Of a DNA stretch of 64,000 nucleotides, positions 10,151 to 18,070 are shown piece by piece. This DNA is from a bacterium. Its GTDB lineage: Bacteria; Pseudomonadota; Alphaproteobacteria; Caulobacterales; Hyphomonadaceae. The stretch is from assembly GCA_016125045.1 (NCBI GenBank), contig WGML01000004.1:124001-188000 (forward strand). The letters run 5' to 3'. Within the stretch, counting starts at the first letter, position 1. Each line of letters starts with the position of its first letter. The notes beneath the pieces were generated by a model. It was given only the letters and a program-made list of their open reading frames with translations. It was not told the DNA's origin and searched no databases. Position numbers and translations under genes: made by a program.

Positions 10151-10291
10151 GCTTACAATTTGCGTCAAGGCCGGGGAGTATCACCGCCGGGCGCTGACGA
10201 GGCGGCGCAGGGGTCCGCGCCACTATCCAGCGGCTGCAAGTGCGCTAAGACAGGGGAAACGCCACCAAGAAACGATGCGGGGAGAGCGACC

Positions 10292-11509
10292 TTGACGACA
10301 GATACAAGCCAGGCCGGACCAGCCGGCGCGCGGCGTTCGACCGGCCCGCTCGCGGGAATCAGCGTCGTCGACCTCTCCACGGTGCTGCTCGGCCCATATG
10401 CGACGCAGATTCTGGGCGATCTCGGCGCAGACGTGATCAAGGTGGAAACCGGCCGCGGCGACATCATGCGTCATGCGGGGCCTGCGCCGGCCGACGGCAT
10501 GGGCGCGCTGTTCATGGCGGCCAACCGCAACAAGCGGTCGATCGTGCTCGATCTGAAGTCCGAACTCGGGGCCGAGGCGCTGCGCCGGCTGATCGCGAAA
10601 TCGGATGTGTTCTTCACCAATGTGCGGATGGACGGGCTGAAACGGCTCGGCTTCGGCCCGGAGGAGGTGAAGGCGCTGCGACCCGACGGGCTCTATGTGC
10701 ACTGCGCGGGATATGGCGCGAAGGGGCCGCTTGCGGGCAGTCCCGCCTATGACGACCTCATCCAGGCGGGTTCGGGCGTCGCCGAACTTCTCGCCATCCG
10801 GGAAGGCGGGCCGCCGAAATATCTGCCGTCCCTGGTGGCCGACAAGACCACGGGCCTGCACGCCGCCTATGCGACGCTCGCCGGGCTGTTCCATCGGGAG
10901 CGGACGGGCGAAGGGCAGTTCATCGAGGTTCCGATGTACGAGGTGTTCACCTCGTTCACGCTGATCGAAAACCTCTACGGGCACACCTTCATCCCTCCGA
11001 CGACGGGCGTCGCTTACAGCCGGTCTGTCAGCCCCAACCGCAAACCCTATGCGACCCTGGACGGCTATATCGGCGTGCTGCCCTATTCCGACGAGCAGTG
11101 GGCGACCTTCTTTGAACTCGGCGGGCGGCCGGGCGTCATGACCGAGGATCCGCGCTTCTCGACCTACAAGGCACGCACCGCCAATATCGATGCGCTCTAC
11201 GCCCTGGTGTCGGAGACGGTGGCGACCAAGACCTCGGCGGAGTGGCTGCGCCTCCTGGAGGAGGCCGACATTCCGGCCATGCGCTGCAATTCGCTGGCGG
11301 AGGTCGTCGATGACGCGCACCTGCGGGCGACGGGGCTGATCCATGAACGCGACCACCCGGCCTTCGGGCCCTATGTGGCGGTCGGGCCGCCGGTCAATTT
11401 CGATGCAACCCCATCCGACATCCGCCGCGAGCCGCCGGGGCTTGGGGAACATACGGCGGAAATCCTCGCCGAGCTTGGCCTGTCCGCGGCTTCGGACCGG
11501 TCAAGCTGA
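10292..11509 (+). CDS. CaiB/BaiF family CoA-transferase
   Basis: LAGISVVDLSTVLLGPYATQILGDLGADVIKVE motif; start uncertain (TTG 10292 proposed; ORF open from 10160). Confidence 0.88.
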   Translation: MTTDTSQAGPAGARRSTGPLAGISVVDLSTVLLGPYATQILGDLGADVIKVETGRGDIMRHAGPAPADGMGALFMAANRNKRSIVLDLKSELGAEALRRLIAKSDVFFTNVRMDGLKRLGFGPEEVKALRPDGLYVHCAGYGAKGPLAGSPAYDDLIQAGSGVAELLAIREGGPPKYLPSLVADKTTGLHAAYATLAGLFHRERTGEGQFIEVPMYEVFTSFTLIENLYGHTFIPPTTGVAYSRSVSPNRKPYATLDGYIGVLPYSDEQWATFFELGGRPGVMTEDPRFSTYKARTANIDALYALVSETVATKTSAEWLRLLEEADIPAMRCNSLAEVVDDAHLRATGLIHERDHPAFGPYVAVGPPVNFDATPSDIRREPPGLGEHTAEILAELGLSAASDRSS

Positions 11510-11594
11510 ACGTCCGGCGCCAAGACGATTTACCATATGCCCCCCATGGGCGTAACGTAGCTCCACCTACAACACGATCTCGGGGAGATGAGAG

Positions 11595-12248
11595 ATGACT
11601 TTCAAGGCAGGACTGGTTTGCGCGGCGGCGATCATGGCCGCGGGATGCGCCGCGACGCCCACCACCGGCGGCGCGCCGCTGTTCACCGGCGGAAACGTTC
11701 AGGCGGTGGCCAATATGGCGATCCCCGGCGGCTGTCCGACGTCGAGCACGCTGACCAGCAGCATCACGGCGGTCTGCCGCGGGGTCGACCTTGCCTCGCT
11801 CGCCCTCAACCGCTCGTCGCGGCCGCAATTCAACTATGCCGAGAACGACGATTTCGACCTTCAGCTCAATGCGTCGATGAAGGGTGGCGTTCCGACGATC
11901 AAGGCGATCACGCCCGCGAGCGAGTCCCTCACCGTCGCCGAGCTTGAGGCGGCGACCGTGCCCTCGGCCGACAGCCCGCGCCTCTCTTTCTGGCTCGCCA
12001 AGATCCGCGCGACCGGCGGCCAGAATCTCGTCTGCCAGGAGGAGACCGACGGGGCCGAGAGCGCCTTCGCCTGGATGGTCGCCAGCATGGCGGCGGACTG
12101 GCTGACCGACTGGCTGACCTACAAGCCGGCCGAAGCCTATCACTCGATCGTCTATGTTCGCCCGATCGAAGGGACGGAGGAGCTTCGCGTCGTGCGCACC
12201 GAGTTCCTCAGCCGGGCGTCAAACCCGAACCCGGTCTGCCCGGCCTAG
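11595..12248 (+). CDS. Hypothetical lipoprotein
   Basis: 217 aa; lipobox MAAGC after hydrophobic signal; no family recognised. Confidence 0.65.
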   Translation: MTFKAGLVCAAAIMAAGCAATPTTGGAPLFTGGNVQAVANMAIPGGCPTSSTLTSSITAVCRGVDLASLALNRSSRPQFNYAENDDFDLQLNASMKGGVPTIKAITPASESLTVAELEAATVPSADSPRLSFWLAKIRATGGQNLVCQEETDGAESAFAWMVASMAADWLTDWLTYKPAEAYHSIVYVRPIEGTEELRVVRTEFLSRASNPNPVCPA

Positions 12249-12298
12249 GGACAGCGGGCTTCTCGACCTGTCCCTGCGTCCCGGGGGGGCGTTGACGC

Positions 12299-12718
12299 CT
12301 AGCGCGTCTTCGCCTTCGCGGGCGACGCGGCGTCCGGCGCGAGCGAGAGCACGACCGCCGCGACGAGCGTGTCCTTCTGGCGTTCGACCTCCGGCAGATC
12401 CTCGTAGGGGATGAGGAGGGGATGGGTTTTCTTCTTGCCGTCCTTCACCTTGCCGTAGCGCCAGCCGTTCGCGAGCTTTTCGTCCGCCCACTGGTCATGC
12501 TGGGCCGACGCCGGCGCCTTGCGGTGCGCGAGACGCCACACGACGGCCTCGCGTGAGGCCGTCTTCATCCACGCCGGAGCGCGCGACCAGGGCGGGGCCG
12601 CCTCCTGGCCGTTCGCCATCTGCCAGGCGCGCACCGCCTCGTGCATCACGCGCGCGATGCGGGTGATCTCCGGAGCGGGGTCGGGCGCGGGCGATCGAGG
12701 GGGCTTCTGGGTCGGCAT
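12299..12718 (-). CDS. Small RyR-domain protein
   Basis: 139 aa from ATG 12718; HDQWADEKLANGWRYGKVKDGKKKTHPLLIPYEDLPEVERQKD matches the ryanodine-receptor RyR repeat signature. Confidence 0.85.
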   Translation of the reverse strand: MPTQKPPRSPAPDPAPEITRIARVMHEAVRAWQMANGQEAAPPWSRAPAWMKTASREAVVWRLAHRKAPASAQHDQWADEKLANGWRYGKVKDGKKKTHPLLIPYEDLPEVERQKDTLVAAVVLSLAPDAASPAKAKTR

Positions 12719-12771
12719 GGGCGCACGCCTTTTGCGGCGGAGGGGTGAGGGACTGCGGCGAGCGTGGGCGG

Positions 12772-15700
12772 TCAGGCCATCGCGCCGGAGCTGAGCATGT
12801 CGTCGGCTTCCTGTTTCCAGGCGCTGATCTGGGCGAACATCGCGGGGTCGATCCATGGCCCGGAATTCGCCTGACCGAGCGCCATGGGCGTCGAGGCCTT
12901 GCCATAGGCATGGACGCCGATCGCGACCGGCGTCGGCGACGACACCGGATCGTGCAGATAGATCGGCGCGCCCGACTGTCCGGCGGTCGTGTCGGTCGCA
13001 TAGAACACGCGGTTCTGCTGCACCCCGATCACCGGCGCGCGATGGTGCCAGAGCTGGGAGGCCTGAACCGGCGGCAGCGGCCGGCCGGACGGGTCTTTCG
13101 CCTGTTCGATTTTCTCGCCGGGATAGCCGGTGACGTGAACCCAGGCGGACTGCAGCTGTTCGGGCGGCCGGGAGGCGAGGCCGAACCAGCCGAGCTTGCG
13201 GCCGATCGGCTTGTCGAGAAAAATCGCCCCGACGTCGAAGGCGAAGTCGAAAGTCGACGCCCACTGGTCCGTCATGTGGATGCGTGCGGCGTTCATCACG
13301 CCATAAGGGGGCTCTTCGGCGCCATTGAGGCCGAAGATCACGTCGATCCGGTCCGGCGGCGCGCGCCGCTCCTTCGGGAACACGCAGTGTCCGGCGGTCA
13401 GGATCAGGTTCGGGCTGACGAGGAAGCCGGTGCCGACCGAGAGGCGCTGGCCCCAATAGCCGCGCAGCGCGCAGATCATCCGCCAGGGGGCGAAATGCGT
13501 GTCGAAGATGCGCACGCGGCTGTCGATCCCGATGATGCTCTCATTGCCCGAGGCGAGAATCTCCTGTTGCGAGGCCACCCCTTCGCGAAGCACCTCCCGG
13601 ATGATCGACGACGCGCCGAGCGTCGGATCGCCGATCGATCCGGGCCAGAACAGGGATGGCGGCGCCGGGGTTGGTTCCGGCGGGGCGGGCGGCGCCGCGC
13701 CAAGCGTGATGCTCTTCCCGATCGGGGAGGCGGCCCGGGGCGGCGGAGCTGGCGCCGGAGCTGGGGCCGGGGCCGGCGGCGGGGGTGGCGTCGGTGCGGG
13801 TGACGTGGTCGTCGCCCCCGGCTCGGGAAGCGCCCATGGCGGCGTCCCGGTGATCCCTCCTGTAGGGGGCTGCGAGCCGGCGACGGGCGTCGTGGGCGCC
13901 GGAGCGGGAGAGGGGGCGGGCGACGCCGGCGCGCCTGCGCCCGTCGATGCCGCGGCGTCCTTGAGGACTTTGAATCCACGGCGAAGCAAGCGCCACTGGC
14001 GGTTGAAGGCGTCGTTGACGCTCAGCGATTCCTGCTCGCTCTCCGCTTCGTCCAGTGTTTGCGCGATCGCCGCGCGGATGCTCTCGATCCAGATGCCCTG
14101 ATTGGCGGCGTATTCGCCGCTCTTGTAGGGCAGGCGCGGCAGGTTCGGCAGGCCGCGATGATGCACGCCGATCAGCTGGAATTTGTTGAAGTCGAACACC
14201 GGACTGCCGGAACTTCCGCCGAGCGTCGGCGCCTTGTAGTGCATGCGCACCGGTTCGGGCGAGGCGGAGAACCCCGCGCCGACGCTCTCGCCGTTCGCCG
14301 ACAGGGCGGGCTTTGCGTCATGGTCGAGCAGGATGTTGTCCGCGAACGAGAAGGACAGCGGTCCACCCATCGGATAGCCGATCACATAGACCCGGCCGAT
14401 GCCGTCGTCAGACTCGCAGCGCTGCGGCAGGGCGTCTTGCGCGTAGACGTCGAGCGGTCTGGCCGACTGGGGAAGCGGGCCCTTCGGTTTCAGAATGGTC
14501 ACATCGTGCGCCTGATCCTCGGACTCCCAGATGATGTCTTCGAATTCGACGCGGATTTCCTGGTCGTTCTCCGGGTTCACGAACACCGCTTCGCAGTTCT
14601 GGAAGCGCTGGCTCATCCGGTTCGGCCGGGACGAGATGACATGGTTGTTGGTGACGATGACCGGGTCGTCGCCCCAGCTGTCGTGGAACACCTTGCCGTG
14701 CACCGCGAAGGCGGTTCCGATCGCGCGGCGCTGGCCGTTCATGTAGCAGTCGATGCGGCAGACGGCGGTCGCGCGCTCGAGGCCGGTGCGCAGGAGCTGG
14801 ACAGCGAACGGGGCGTTGTTCGCGAAGATCTGCTCGTAGCCCTTGGGGTCCTCGGCGACCGCCTTCCCCATGCCGGGGGCCGGGGCTTCCGGCGTCGCGC
14901 TGCGGCGGACCTTGTCCTTCTGGAGTTCGGCCTCGATCATCTCCGAATCCTTGACGATCAGCGCCGCCTCGCTGGCGCTGACGTGGATTTCGGTGGTCTC
15001 GCGGGTTTCTGGCGTGTCCCCGCCTGCGGCTTTCATCTTGGTGATGAGCGCGGTCTTCAGCACTCGGACCGGGGCGCCCTCGACCTCATGCCGCCCGTCG
15101 AGGCCCCAGATCTCCTCAAGCTGGCGCAGCGCGGCGTTGAGCTGGAACAGGCTGACCTCGGGACGGAACACGAAATTGGCGTAGGACTTCGCCGCCTCGG
15201 CGAACTTCCCCTGATAGATCTGCGTCTCGCCAAGCGTCGCCCAGGACCAGGCGTCGGGCGTGCCGTCCACGGCGTTCAGAATGTCGCGGGCGAGCGCGTT
15301 GAGGTCCGCTCCGGGCACGGGATTGCCCTCGATCTCGGCGCGGCGGGCGACCGAGAGCGCGTTCACGCCATAATAGGCGGTGGAAGCCGATTGCTCGATC
15401 GACCACACCTGCGAATAGGCGCGGTAGCTCTTGTGGAGATAGGTCTCCCGCAGCGCCTCATCGAGCGGCGGAGTGGCCTTTATCCCGTCGGCGAACAGTT
15501 GCTTGTAGATGCGGCCAAGCGCGGAGAGCCCGTCCCGTCCGGCGTTGGTCGTCGGTCCCTGGGCCGCGAGCGGCGTTGCAAGCGCGAGCGCCGCCTCGTG
15601 CACGCCGAGTTCGATCAGCGCCTGGATTTCCCAGCGTTTCATGTCGAGCCGCTGCTGCAGCCGCTTGCGCCGGACCGTCAGCGCCTGAAGCTTCGCCGCG

Positions 15701-16194
15701 TCTCCGGCCTGCTTCGCCGTGGCGATGTCCGCGTCCAGCCCTTCCGTGTCGAAACGGGTCTCGCCCGGCGTGTTGAGTTCGGAGGTGAGGATGTAGAGGT
15801 CGTCGAACGCCCGGTTCTCGCGCAGCATCTTGCCGAAGCCGTGCAGCGCATCCAGCCCGTCCGCGCCGAGTTCGCGGGCGCGCGCGATGATCCGCAAGAG
15901 CGCCGACAGGGTCGGGCTGGTGTCGGCCTTCCAGAGGACGGGCACGAGCTGCTTCAGGTCAGCGCTCAGCGCCTCGATTTCGGCCTCGGGCGCGGCCGGA
16001 GCCGCCGTACCGGATGCGTTGAGAGCCATGGAACGGGCGGAAGGGGCCGGCGCGACGGCGGGCGCGGCAGCTTCGGGGGCCTGAGCTTCGGGGGCCTGAG
16101 CTTCAGGCGCGGCCGTATCGGGCGCCGCGTTCGGGTCGGCGGGGGTCGGGTCGGCGTCGCTCGGGTTCGGTTGGGTCGGGAGATGATCGGTCAT
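12772..16194 (-). CDS. TRAFs-binding/DUF4071-like TPR region plus two trypsin-like serine protease domains
   Basis: N-terminal region with ALGRIYKQLF...AYYGVNALSVA...WSWATLGETQIYQGKFAEAAKSY; protease 1 NNHV / HDVTIL / GGSSGSPV; protease 2 TAGHC / FDFAFDVGAI / TTAGQSGAPI; start at ATG 16194. Confidence 0.85.
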   Translation of the reverse strand: MTDHLPTQPNPSDADPTPADPNAAPDTAAPEAQAPEAQAPEAAAPAVAPAPSARSMALNASGTAAPAAPEAEIEALSADLKQLVPVLWKADTSPTLSALLRIIARARELGADGLDALHGFGKMLRENRAFDDLYILTSELNTPGETRFDTEGLDADIATAKQAGDAAKLQALTVRRKRLQQRLDMKRWEIQALIELGVHEAALALATPLAAQGPTTNAGRDGLSALGRIYKQLFADGIKATPPLDEALRETYLHKSYRAYSQVWSIEQSASTAYYGVNALSVARRAEIEGNPVPGADLNALARDILNAVDGTPDAWSWATLGETQIYQGKFAEAAKSYANFVFRPEVSLFQLNAALRQLEEIWGLDGRHEVEGAPVRVLKTALITKMKAAGGDTPETRETTEIHVSASEAALIVKDSEMIEAELQKDKVRRSATPEAPAPGMGKAVAEDPKGYEQIFANNAPFAVQLLRTGLERATAVCRIDCYMNGQRRAIGTAFAVHGKVFHDSWGDDPVIVTNNHVISSRPNRMSQRFQNCEAVFVNPENDQEIRVEFEDIIWESEDQAHDVTILKPKGPLPQSARPLDVYAQDALPQRCESDDGIGRVYVIGYPMGGPLSFSFADNILLDHDAKPALSANGESVGAGFSASPEPVRMHYKAPTLGGSSGSPVFDFNKFQLIGVHHRGLPNLPRLPYKSGEYAANQGIWIESIRAAIAQTLDEAESEQESLSVNDAFNRQWRLLRRGFKVLKDAAASTGAGAPASPAPSPAPAPTTPVAGSQPPTGGITGTPPWALPEPGATTTSPAPTPPPPPAPAPAPAPAPPPRAASPIGKSITLGAAPPAPPEPTPAPPSLFWPGSIGDPTLGASSIIREVLREGVASQQEILASGNESIIGIDSRVRIFDTHFAPWRMICALRGYWGQRLSVGTGFLVSPNLILTAGHCVFPKERRAPPDRIDVIFGLNGAEEPPYGVMNAARIHMTDQWASTFDFAFDVGAIFLDKPIGRKLGWFGLASRPPEQLQSAWVHVTGYPGEKIEQAKDPSGRPLPPVQASQLWHHRAPVIGVQQNRVFYATDTTAGQSGAPIYLHDPVSSPTPVAIGVHAYGKASTPMALGQANSGPWIDPAMFAQISAWKQEADDMLSSGAMA
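16070..16104. repeat. 15-bp tandem repeat (GCTTCGGGGGCCTGA, two full copies plus partial) in the low-complexity N-terminus of the protease gene
   Basis: Direct reading; encodes PEAQAPEAQAPEA on the minus strand. Confidence 0.9.
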
Positions 16195-16211
16195 CGCGGC
16201 TCTCCTCCTCT

Positions 16212-17906
16212 TCAGACGGCTGCGGCGGGGGCGGCCGTAGGCGGCGACCATCGGCTGAAATCAGGCGCGGCGGCCTGGAGCGGAACCCAGTCGGCGTCCG
16301 CTGCGGATGCGGCGGGCGCGCCGCCCTCGAGCAGCGCCTGGAGCGTGGAGCGCAGGCTGCTCACGCGCTTTAACCATCCGCGCAGGAACACGCCCTGTGA
16401 CGGGTTCATCTCGACGAGGCGGCGGTAGAACGTCTCCCGCCGGTCGAGGAAAGCCTGAACCAGCCCGGGCATGTCCGAGCCGGCGCTGAGCACGCGCTTC
16501 TGGGTGGATTCGCCCCACAGCCCGTCGACCGCGAGGTCGGGCGTGCCGACGCACTGCTGCAACATGCGGATGGCGGGCTGCACCCCATGGTTCACGGCGG
16601 CGTCGAACACCGCGATCGCGATCGCCTCTCCCGGCATGTCCTGGCACCGGGCGGGGACCCAATAACCCTGGCGATAGATCTCCGCGATTTCGTCCGGGGT
16701 GATGTCCTTGACGCTGCGGATCGCCGCCTTCTTCTTCTTGCGGTAGGCGTCATAGGTCGCCTGGGTCACGCCCCGGTTGGTCGCGCGACCGGGGTCCTTC
16801 GGGTGGTTCACATAGCCGCCCTCATGTTCGAGCACGAGTTCGAGCGCCCGCGCGAACACGCCCTCCGACACCCCCATCGAACCCATCCGTCCGCTGAGGC
16901 CGGCCGGCAGGGTGAAGCTCTCCGCGGCGGCGGCCGGGGACGTCATCATGAGTTCGAGCGACTCCGCCATGTCGCCGGGGTCCTCCATCGTCGTGAAGCT
17001 CTCCGTCTGCGCCATCACGGAGGAGAATTTCCGTTCCGCCGCCTCGACCAGCCGCTGGGCGTCCGCGCGCGTGAGGTCGGGTGAGGTCACGGCGGTCACG
17101 CGGAAATAGTCGACCGCGCCGGCGACGTCCTGCTGGGCGAGGGCCGCCTCGCGGATCCGCCGCCACGCCTGATTGAGATCGGGCAGCGTCATCCAGTCCG
17201 GGCGCGTCTCCTCGCCGACGAAATCGAGCACGAGATAAGGCGCCTTGATCGGGCCGTCGGCGTTGCGCAGCGCATAACCGCCTTCATCGAAGCGCAGCCC
17301 CTTGGTGTCGACCGACGCGTCCATCAGCACGTAGCGGCCGGTCGCGATCGGCGATGTCAGCGTGGTGTTGATCGCGCCGAGCGCGCGCAGCTTGTCTGCG
17401 TCGAGCAGCGCATCGAGGCTCTGCTTGATCCGGTCAACGGTCTGCACGCCCATGCTCACAGCGCCGGCGATCGGCGCCGCCGCTGAGAAGAACGCCGCCG
17501 CCGGGGACGCCGCGATTTCCGACGCCACGTTGAGAGCGCCCGCCAGATAGTCCTTCTTGCGGATCTGCCCGAGCGTGAAATCGATCGTCACCTGCTCGCG
17601 GGCGATCAGCCGCGGCGTCAGCTGGAGATTGACAACGTGCGCGGTGCTGGCCCCGCCGAAGTCCGGCCGCTCCTCGCTGGTGTTCGGAAACAGACCGCAG
17701 AGCGTCTGTTCACCGTCGAAGGTGAAATGCTTGAGCGCCGCCCAGACCACCGGTGCATATTTCGATGTGCTGAAGAAACCCGACGGCGTGTTTACCGCCA
17801 CGAGCCAGACCGAAAGATAGTCCTGCTCCGGGCGCAGCGGCGGGCCCCGCTCGCCGATCTGAGTGAGCCGGTAGCCCGAGGCGGTCGTGCGTCTTCCCCT
17901 CGCCAT
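16212..17906 (-). CDS. Uncharacterised N-terminal region fused to a GH108-type N-acetylmuramidase with peptidoglycan-binding-like C-terminus
   Basis: EHEGGYVNHPKDPGRATNRGVTQATYDAYR (GH108 catalytic signature) and AIAVFDAAVNHGVQPAIRMLQQCVG...DGLWGESTQKRVL; no N-terminal signal peptide apparent. Confidence 0.82.
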   Translation of the reverse strand: MARGRRTTASGYRLTQIGERGPPLRPEQDYLSVWLVAVNTPSGFFSTSKYAPVVWAALKHFTFDGEQTLCGLFPNTSEERPDFGGASTAHVVNLQLTPRLIAREQVTIDFTLGQIRKKDYLAGALNVASEIAASPAAAFFSAAAPIAGAVSMGVQTVDRIKQSLDALLDADKLRALGAINTTLTSPIATGRYVLMDASVDTKGLRFDEGGYALRNADGPIKAPYLVLDFVGEETRPDWMTLPDLNQAWRRIREAALAQQDVAGAVDYFRVTAVTSPDLTRADAQRLVEAAERKFSSVMAQTESFTTMEDPGDMAESLELMMTSPAAAAESFTLPAGLSGRMGSMGVSEGVFARALELVLEHEGGYVNHPKDPGRATNRGVTQATYDAYRKKKKAAIRSVKDITPDEIAEIYRQGYWVPARCQDMPGEAIAIAVFDAAVNHGVQPAIRMLQQCVGTPDLAVDGLWGESTQKRVLSAGSDMPGLVQAFLDRRETFYRRLVEMNPSQGVFLRGWLKRVSSLRSTLQALLEGGAPAASAADADWVPLQAAAPDFSRWSPPTAAPAAAV

Positions 17907-17929
17907 GGCGTCTTCCCCTTCGCCTTGCT

Positions 17930-17942
17930 TAACACTGTGTTA
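17930..17942. promoter_or_regulatory. Perfect inverted repeat TAACAC-T-GTGTTA in the divergent intergenic region
   Basis: Direct reading, between the start of the GH108 gene (17906) and the start of the RyR membrane gene (18071). Confidence 0.5.
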
Positions 17943-18070
17943 GCATGTGGTTTCGGGACCGAGTAGGTCGAACGGCGCCGGTTCACTGCATCAGCCGGCA
18001 TTTTTTGGCGGTTTGCGCTCGATCTTCCGGGGCATTCGTCCGATTGTTCCGGTTCGGGGAGGATCATCTC

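Follow-up and report, generated by a model that had tools for sequence, protein, structure and literature searches.

The locus and its genes

The stretch of DNA analysed here (64,000 nucleotides of contig WGML01000004.1, assembly GCA_016125045.1, positions 124,001 to 188,000 of the forward strand; hereafter the window, in whose coordinates all positions are given) comes from an alphaproteobacterium of the Hyphomonadaceae and carries a minus-strand operon whose middle gene encodes two trypsin-like proteases in one polypeptide. The operon order is a GH108 muramidase fused to a region that we call X (X-GH108, 564 residues, 16212..17906), the two-protease protein (1140 residues, 12772..16194) and a small RyR-domain protein (12299..12718). 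A divergent gene on the plus strand (18071..19957) encodes a membrane protein with two transmembrane segments, two Rossmann- or RCK-like stretches and a C-terminal RyR domain. The two-protease gene runs from an ATG at 16194 to a stop codon ending at 12772, exactly the limits given in a preliminary description of this stretch, and a second possible start is found at an in-frame ATG upstream, at 16251.

These four genes occur together in eight distinct alphaproteobacterial genomes of several genera (the window, L009, identical to L011, L012, identical to L129, L013, identical to L128, and L124 to L127), mostly at 30-50% identity and with the membrane-protein gene in either of two orientations. 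Given that L009, L012 and L013 have flanking genes in common that fall into other clusters than those beside the window operon, the four genes appear, as judged from their neighbourhoods, to travel as a unit. All parts of the operon are under purifying selection between L009 and L012, with ratios of nonsynonymous to synonymous substitution (dN/dS, taken from computed dN and dS) of about 0.10 to 0.29; conservation is highest in protease 2 (89% identity, dN/dS about 0.10) and lowest in the membrane protein (about 0.29). Beside the operon lies a short lipoprotein-like open reading frame on the plus strand (11595-12248) with no Pfam match.

A sensor-like region and two proteases in one chain

In the 1140-residue protein, Pfam recognises TPR-S (PF20308, residues 184-281, E 1.4e-7), Trypsin_2 (507-677, E 2.4e-23) and Trypsin (920-1100, E 9.5e-12). 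An AlphaFold2 model of residues 71-1140 has a predicted local distance difference test (pLDDT) of about 90 over the TPR helices and protease 1, about 80 over protease 2, and below 40 in the Pro/Ala linker that separates them, a Pro/Ala/Gly-rich and apparently disordered stretch at residues 748-870 or thereabouts (13585..13953, minus strand; pLDDT mostly <40). The two trypsin-like domains with intact triads that had been noted earlier are thus borne out, both by Pfam and by the retention of the triads in homologues, and so is the lack of a signal peptide: no signal peptide or transmembrane segment is visible in the sequence or its hydropathy. A plain secreted protease was rejected on the latter ground, and a chance reading frame or pseudogene by the triads, the synteny and the dN/dS values. 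Searching genome and viral collections with the 1140-residue protein as a single sequence gave no matches; a scan based on an alignment was required.

The helical region at residues 71-380 (15055..15984, minus strand), for which a sensor role is predicted, has the TPR-S core as its centre, scoring 32.4 bits against a curated cut-off of 27.6, and the residues R/K/Y/N/E/RQ/W, charged and aromatic ones among them, are invariant in 27 homologues. A profile of 29 homologues matches the central regulatory region of ASK1 (MAP3K5) across the TPR part (5ulm, E 9e-5; 8qgy, E 4e-4), so that this part is, by profile comparison, related to that region. The preliminary description had called it TRAFs-binding-like, which is fair for the family, given this match and the proteins that pass the corresponding Pfam model, MAP3K_TRAF_bd (PF13281), namely a homologue from Sinorhizobium, in L002, and a TPR-S neighbour in L028; the window protein itself is TPR-S by Pfam and falls below the PF13281 cut-off. 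The likeness to ASK1 is one of TPR sequence at profile level, and while ASK1 couples its TPR region to a kinase, the window protein couples it to proteases.

Protease 1 (residues 478-710, 14065..14763, minus strand) has the triad H518/D564/S662, and all three residues are kept in 47 of 47 homologous loci, a count in which the serine was to some extent favoured by the pattern used for the search. It carries a threonine at Ser-5 and an equivalent of His213, and since the equivalents of His213 and Thr190 are both present, a preference for glutamate is plausible on sequence grounds.

An embedded glutamyl endopeptidase and its candidate activation site

Protease 2 (residues 886-1128, 12811..13539, minus strand) is by sequence and predicted fold a glutamyl endopeptidase domain of the V8 type, and not a secreted enzyme of this kind. 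In Foldseek searches with the predicted structure, glutamyl endopeptidases were the best matches (1p3c, E 4e-10, TM-score 0.80 on the target), and the alignment to BIGEP starts with the first mature segment (VIGDDGRTKV against IIGIDSRVRI or VIGDDNRMQV). Its triad (H936/D987/S1074, the aspartate being the second of FDFAFD in the alignment to 1p3c) is kept in all eight two-protease proteins, as are a threonine at Ser-5 (position 190), His213, Gly216 and a glutamate at -1, the numbers 190, 213 and 216 being assigned by motif alignment rather than by superposition. With V8, BIGEP and Esp (S1B; 1qy6, 1p3c, 4jcn), protease 2 thus shares fold, triad, Thr190, His213, Gly216 and the N-terminal (V/I)IG.D.R; those enzymes carry a signal peptide and a propeptide and are secreted, whereas protease 2 has 885 residues before its mature start, in a protein that lacks a signal peptide.

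In the V8/BIGEP group, formation of the S1 pocket depends on the release of a new N-terminus, because the alpha-amino group at residue 1 is required for it, along with His213, Thr/Ser190 and Gly216 (PMC5508998), and the Streptomyces enzyme Glu-SGP autoprocesses at Glu(-1)-Val1. The equivalent position in the window protein is the candidate site E885↓S886 (the arrow marks the putative cut; 13537..13542, minus strand), directly before IIGIDSR. In the eight proteins, this site reads GNE↓SIIG (window), GFE↓TVIG (three proteins), GME↓SVIG, RLE↓TVIG, GLE↓TVIG and QLE↓TVIG, so that glutamate at -1 and serine or threonine at +1 are kept in 8/8 within a linker that is otherwise highly variable in sequence and length. 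Because the pocket of this group needs a freed N-terminus and the glutamate is invariant, the natural reading of the sequence is that protease 2 is an embedded zymogen with a predicted cut after Glu. The earlier proposal of a cytosolic, TPR-regulated protein with zymogen-like activation instead of secretion is thereby supported, albeit indirectly, through the V8/BIGEP relation and the conserved Glu. That earlier description covered neither the muramidase and RyR genes of the operon nor the single-protease form that is usual in the family.

If the two proteases were instead independent modules with separate substrates, the glutamate before protease 2 would be an uncut relic of an ancestor that was a secreted glutamyl endopeptidase. 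Relatives of protease 2 that stand alone are indeed found on plasmids, but the conservation of Glu and Ser/Thr in a drifting linker, and the requirement of the V8/BIGEP group for a free N-terminus, make us regard this explanation as very improbable.

The muramidase and candidate release sites

X-GH108 consists of the X region (residues 1-300, 17007..17906, minus strand), a beta-sandwich plus helices, followed by the GH108 catalytic domain (residues 356-441, 16584..16841, minus strand; E 9.8e-30), which places it in that family and has an EGG motif within HEGGY, and by PG_binding_3 (E 1.1e-11). The fold of X is weakly C2-like, an identity that is merely suggestive, as the best Foldseek E-value was 0.03 and the C2 matches, with probabilities up to 0.92, included none below 1e-3. 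Among the genomes sampled, X is confined to the bacterial family of the operon: it occurs in one of 190 genomes across the class, the window's own, yet repeatedly within that family. The catalytic domain is closest to phage endolysins; those of Sphingomonas phage Kharn and Rhizobium phage RHph_I3_18 are about 44% identical over the GH108 and peptidoglycan-binding region and have the EGG motif in common with it, while the operon protein is fused to X and stands outside any phage context. No full-length relative of X-GH108 or of the two-protease protein was found in a phage collection, and this, with the TPR-S and RyR partners, led us to reject a prophage lysis cassette.

A second candidate cleavage site, E302↓S303 (16998..17003, minus strand), lies at the junction of X and GH108. 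In most of the two-protease or one-chain proteins, a G-(A/F/M)-E↓S motif marks the end of X, with the glutamate in 9/9 and the following serine in 8/9, and the motif is absent from L131 and L134, neither of which has protease 2. A related G-(F/Q)-E↓(S/A/R) directly follows the peptidoglycan-binding domain in 7/8 GH108 partners, the window being the exception, and GFE was not found at that site in six unrelated GH108 proteins checked, phage ones included. GFE↓S occurs at three linker positions of L010, where 0.02 would be expected by shuffling, and at three domain boundaries of L130, which was fetched after the motif had been defined (0.03 expected). Of the nine occurrences of GFE(S/T) in 176,678 residues of neighbourhood reading frames, seven fall within proteins of the system; those in a CHAT-TPR neighbour in L038 and in L040 were judged incidental.

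The wider TPR-S-trypsin family

The common form of the family, found in many phyla, is a TPR-S region with one protease, of about 530 residues. An alpha/beta hydrolase adjoins it in 21 loci across different phyla (L002, L003, L014-L017, L019, L020, L022, L027, L036, L037, L039, L040, L042-L046, L049 and L056) and forms a single chain with it in L018; those of L002 and L045 have no PADLOC match. GH108 is immediately upstream of the TPR-S-trypsin gene in L002, L015, L016 and L036, an adjacency that is not due to chance, as only six of the 21 related genomes have GH108 at all, with 0-1 copies per genome, and in L033 the gene is followed by one for a lysozyme-like protein with PG_binding_1. Elsewhere, the parts are joined in one chain: X, TPR-S, protease 1 and a lysozyme-like domain (called from weak Pfam matches to Pesticin and Phage_lysozyme) in L010; X, GH108, TPR-S and protease 1 in L130; and X, TPR-S, protease 1 and a peptidoglycan-binding-like tail in L133. 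In L131 and L134, X-GH108 adjoins a single-protease TPR-S protein. It should be kept in mind that L124-L137 were fetched by a search with X-GH108 and are not independent evidence of its linkage to the protease, whereas the loci from other searches, the alignment-based scan included, are.

Genes for TIR-nSTAND1, TRPM-type SLOG and TPR-S/MAP3K_TRAF_bd proteins adjoin relatives, for instance TIR or TRPM-SLOG in L002, L022 and L045. In L132 (7318-10251, related genome G069), a single protein of 977 residues unites TIR, a WD40-like propeller and GH108, with GFE↓N between propeller and muramidase, and this fusion independently suggests, from its domain composition, that GH108 may act as an effector in conflict systems.

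Several further arrangements were recorded. A solitary GH108-trypsin-like fusion with an intact-looking triad lies among housekeeping genes in L107 (8209-9438, related genome G006). In L036, a TPR-S protein with a weak SLOG (YAcAr) match (411-2429) is upstream of the GH108, alpha/beta hydrolase and TPR-S-trypsin genes, and in L035, a protein of tandem 8-residue repeats of the GSKIAGHE type (1-501) is directly upstream of the TPR-S-trypsin gene. A reading frame in L135 (58-1005) joins part of X straight to the end of protease 2, as a deletion remnant or an assembly artefact.

A proposed proteolytic cascade and its alternatives

Synteny, domain fusions, the logic of the zymogen, the candidate cut sites, purifying selection and the conflict-gene context together support a signal-gated proteolytic cascade with the muramidase as executioner and suicide lysis as outcome, a reading to which we would give an even chance. 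The cascade would start with a small signal, for which the standing prediction is a nucleotide derived from nicotinamide adenine dinucleotide (NAD+), sensed by the TPR-S region and probably by the RyR domains as well, and this would switch on protease 1. Protease 2, a zymogen as long as it has no free N-terminus, would then be cut behind E885, whether by protease 1 or autocatalytically, giving an S/T-V/I-I-G N-terminus and completing its Glu pocket. The active protease or proteases would next cut the G-x-E↓S junction of X and GH108, freeing the endolysin-like muramidase, which would lyse the infected or damaged cell, perhaps aided by the two-transmembrane RCK/RyR protein, which would open the inner membrane. 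The switching-on of a proenzyme by a sensor-linked protease of the trypsin type has a precedent (PMC12799240), and activation of this kind has been considered for further predicted conflict systems as well (PMC8195603).

Several observations weigh against such a cascade. In L131 and L134, X-GH108 and protease 1 occur without protease 2 or the junction motif, and in L127 (9338-11053), the catalytic EGG segment has been lost from GH108 within an otherwise intact operon. In the window itself, the activation site is GNE↓S rather than GFE↓S, and the C-terminal tail of GH108 is without the G-x-E↓S of most others. The Glu-site motif was spotted by eye after the sequences had been viewed, so that L130 is its sole clean test, and the cascade gives no account of how the muramidase would cross the inner membrane. 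Finally, neither the window operon nor the flanking genes scanned (10160-27458) yielded an enzyme that would make or handle an NAD+-derived ligand, and no PADLOC (2023) system contains the operon genes, the similarity being limited to weak matches of the protease domains to PDC-S45, RT-Protease_XI and LmuA.

Some of these points would also fit an arrangement in which protease 1 is the executioner, cutting host or phage proteins, X-GH108 senses damage to the cell wall or the lysis enzymes of phages, and protease 2 amplifies the response. Most TPR-S-trypsin relatives have no muramidase, standing beside an alpha/beta hydrolase alone or beside neither, peptidoglycan-binding domains recur, and the loss of the EGG segment in L127 would accord with a sensor role for X-GH108. 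Nevertheless, the EGG motif is retained in the other GH108 partners, the cytosol holds no peptidoglycan to be sensed, and the conserved Glu-Ser junction of X and GH108 resembles a release site, and we consider this arrangement unlikely. We think it similarly unlikely that the same wiring from protease to muramidase serves programmed lysis or a released toxin, as in stress lysis or interbacterial killing, without relation to phage defence. The flanks scanned in the window showed no defence island, GH108 is closest to phage endolysins, and there is no match to catalogued defence systems; on the other hand, the TPR-S and RyR domains, like the TIR, TRPM-SLOG and nSTAND1 genes beside relatives, are of a kind usual in conflict systems, and the patchy distribution over different loci also speaks against such a role.

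Relation to known systems and implications

Burroughs and Aravind (J Bacteriol, 2020) reportedly described TPR-S and RyR proteins as parts of predicted conflict systems that depend on NAD+-derived nucleotides. The window operon resembles these in that it unites TPR-S and RyR, with the TPR-S sensor fused to an effector and with TIR, TRPM-type SLOG or nSTAND genes beside relatives, but differs in being centred on a GH108 muramidase, in having two proteases in one chain, and in that the operon was not found to encode an enzyme making the ligand. In Hachiman and AVAST, trypsin-like proteases activate partner nuclease proenzymes, and the nuclease-protease pairs of Hachiman, AVAST, Lamassu and DRT (PMC12799240) likewise place a sensor-fused trypsin-like protease beside a proenzyme effector. 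Here, however, the effector is a peptidoglycan hydrolase rather than a nuclease of the metallo-beta-lactamase fold, for which Pfam found no candidate in the window operon, the second protease is embedded as a likely zymogen and the sensor is different, so that the resemblance is one of working principle. Our search of the literature on TPR-S or muramidase effectors found nothing relevant; TPR-S is unmentioned in a study of the lipocone (PMC12419801), and bacterial RyR operons are not covered in PMC7016017. The link between TPR-S-trypsin and a muramidase and the embedded zymogen thus appear to be new, being absent from the literature that was searched.

Put in its fullest form, which we advance tentatively, our proposal is that TPR-S/RyR signalling has as its suicide effector a domesticated muramidase of the phage-endolysin type, which is held inactive while in the cytosol and may be freed by a two-step Glu-specific cascade whose proteases, the zymogen among them, are encoded as a single polypeptide. 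This would be a bacterial analogue of the caspase or complement cascades, with lysis of the cell wall as its end point. The predicted bonds are exact, E885↓S886 and E302↓S303. Gasdermins are among the protease-activated effectors described so far. If the proposal is correct, the TPR-S proteases would have both a defined substrate and an effector acting downstream of them, and peptidoglycan hydrolases would join a group of protease-activated effectors that has hitherto consisted mainly of nucleases and gasdermins. Bacteria would, moreover, possess an intramolecular zymogen cascade under the control of an ASK1-like sensor and, with it, a new kind of suicide effector.

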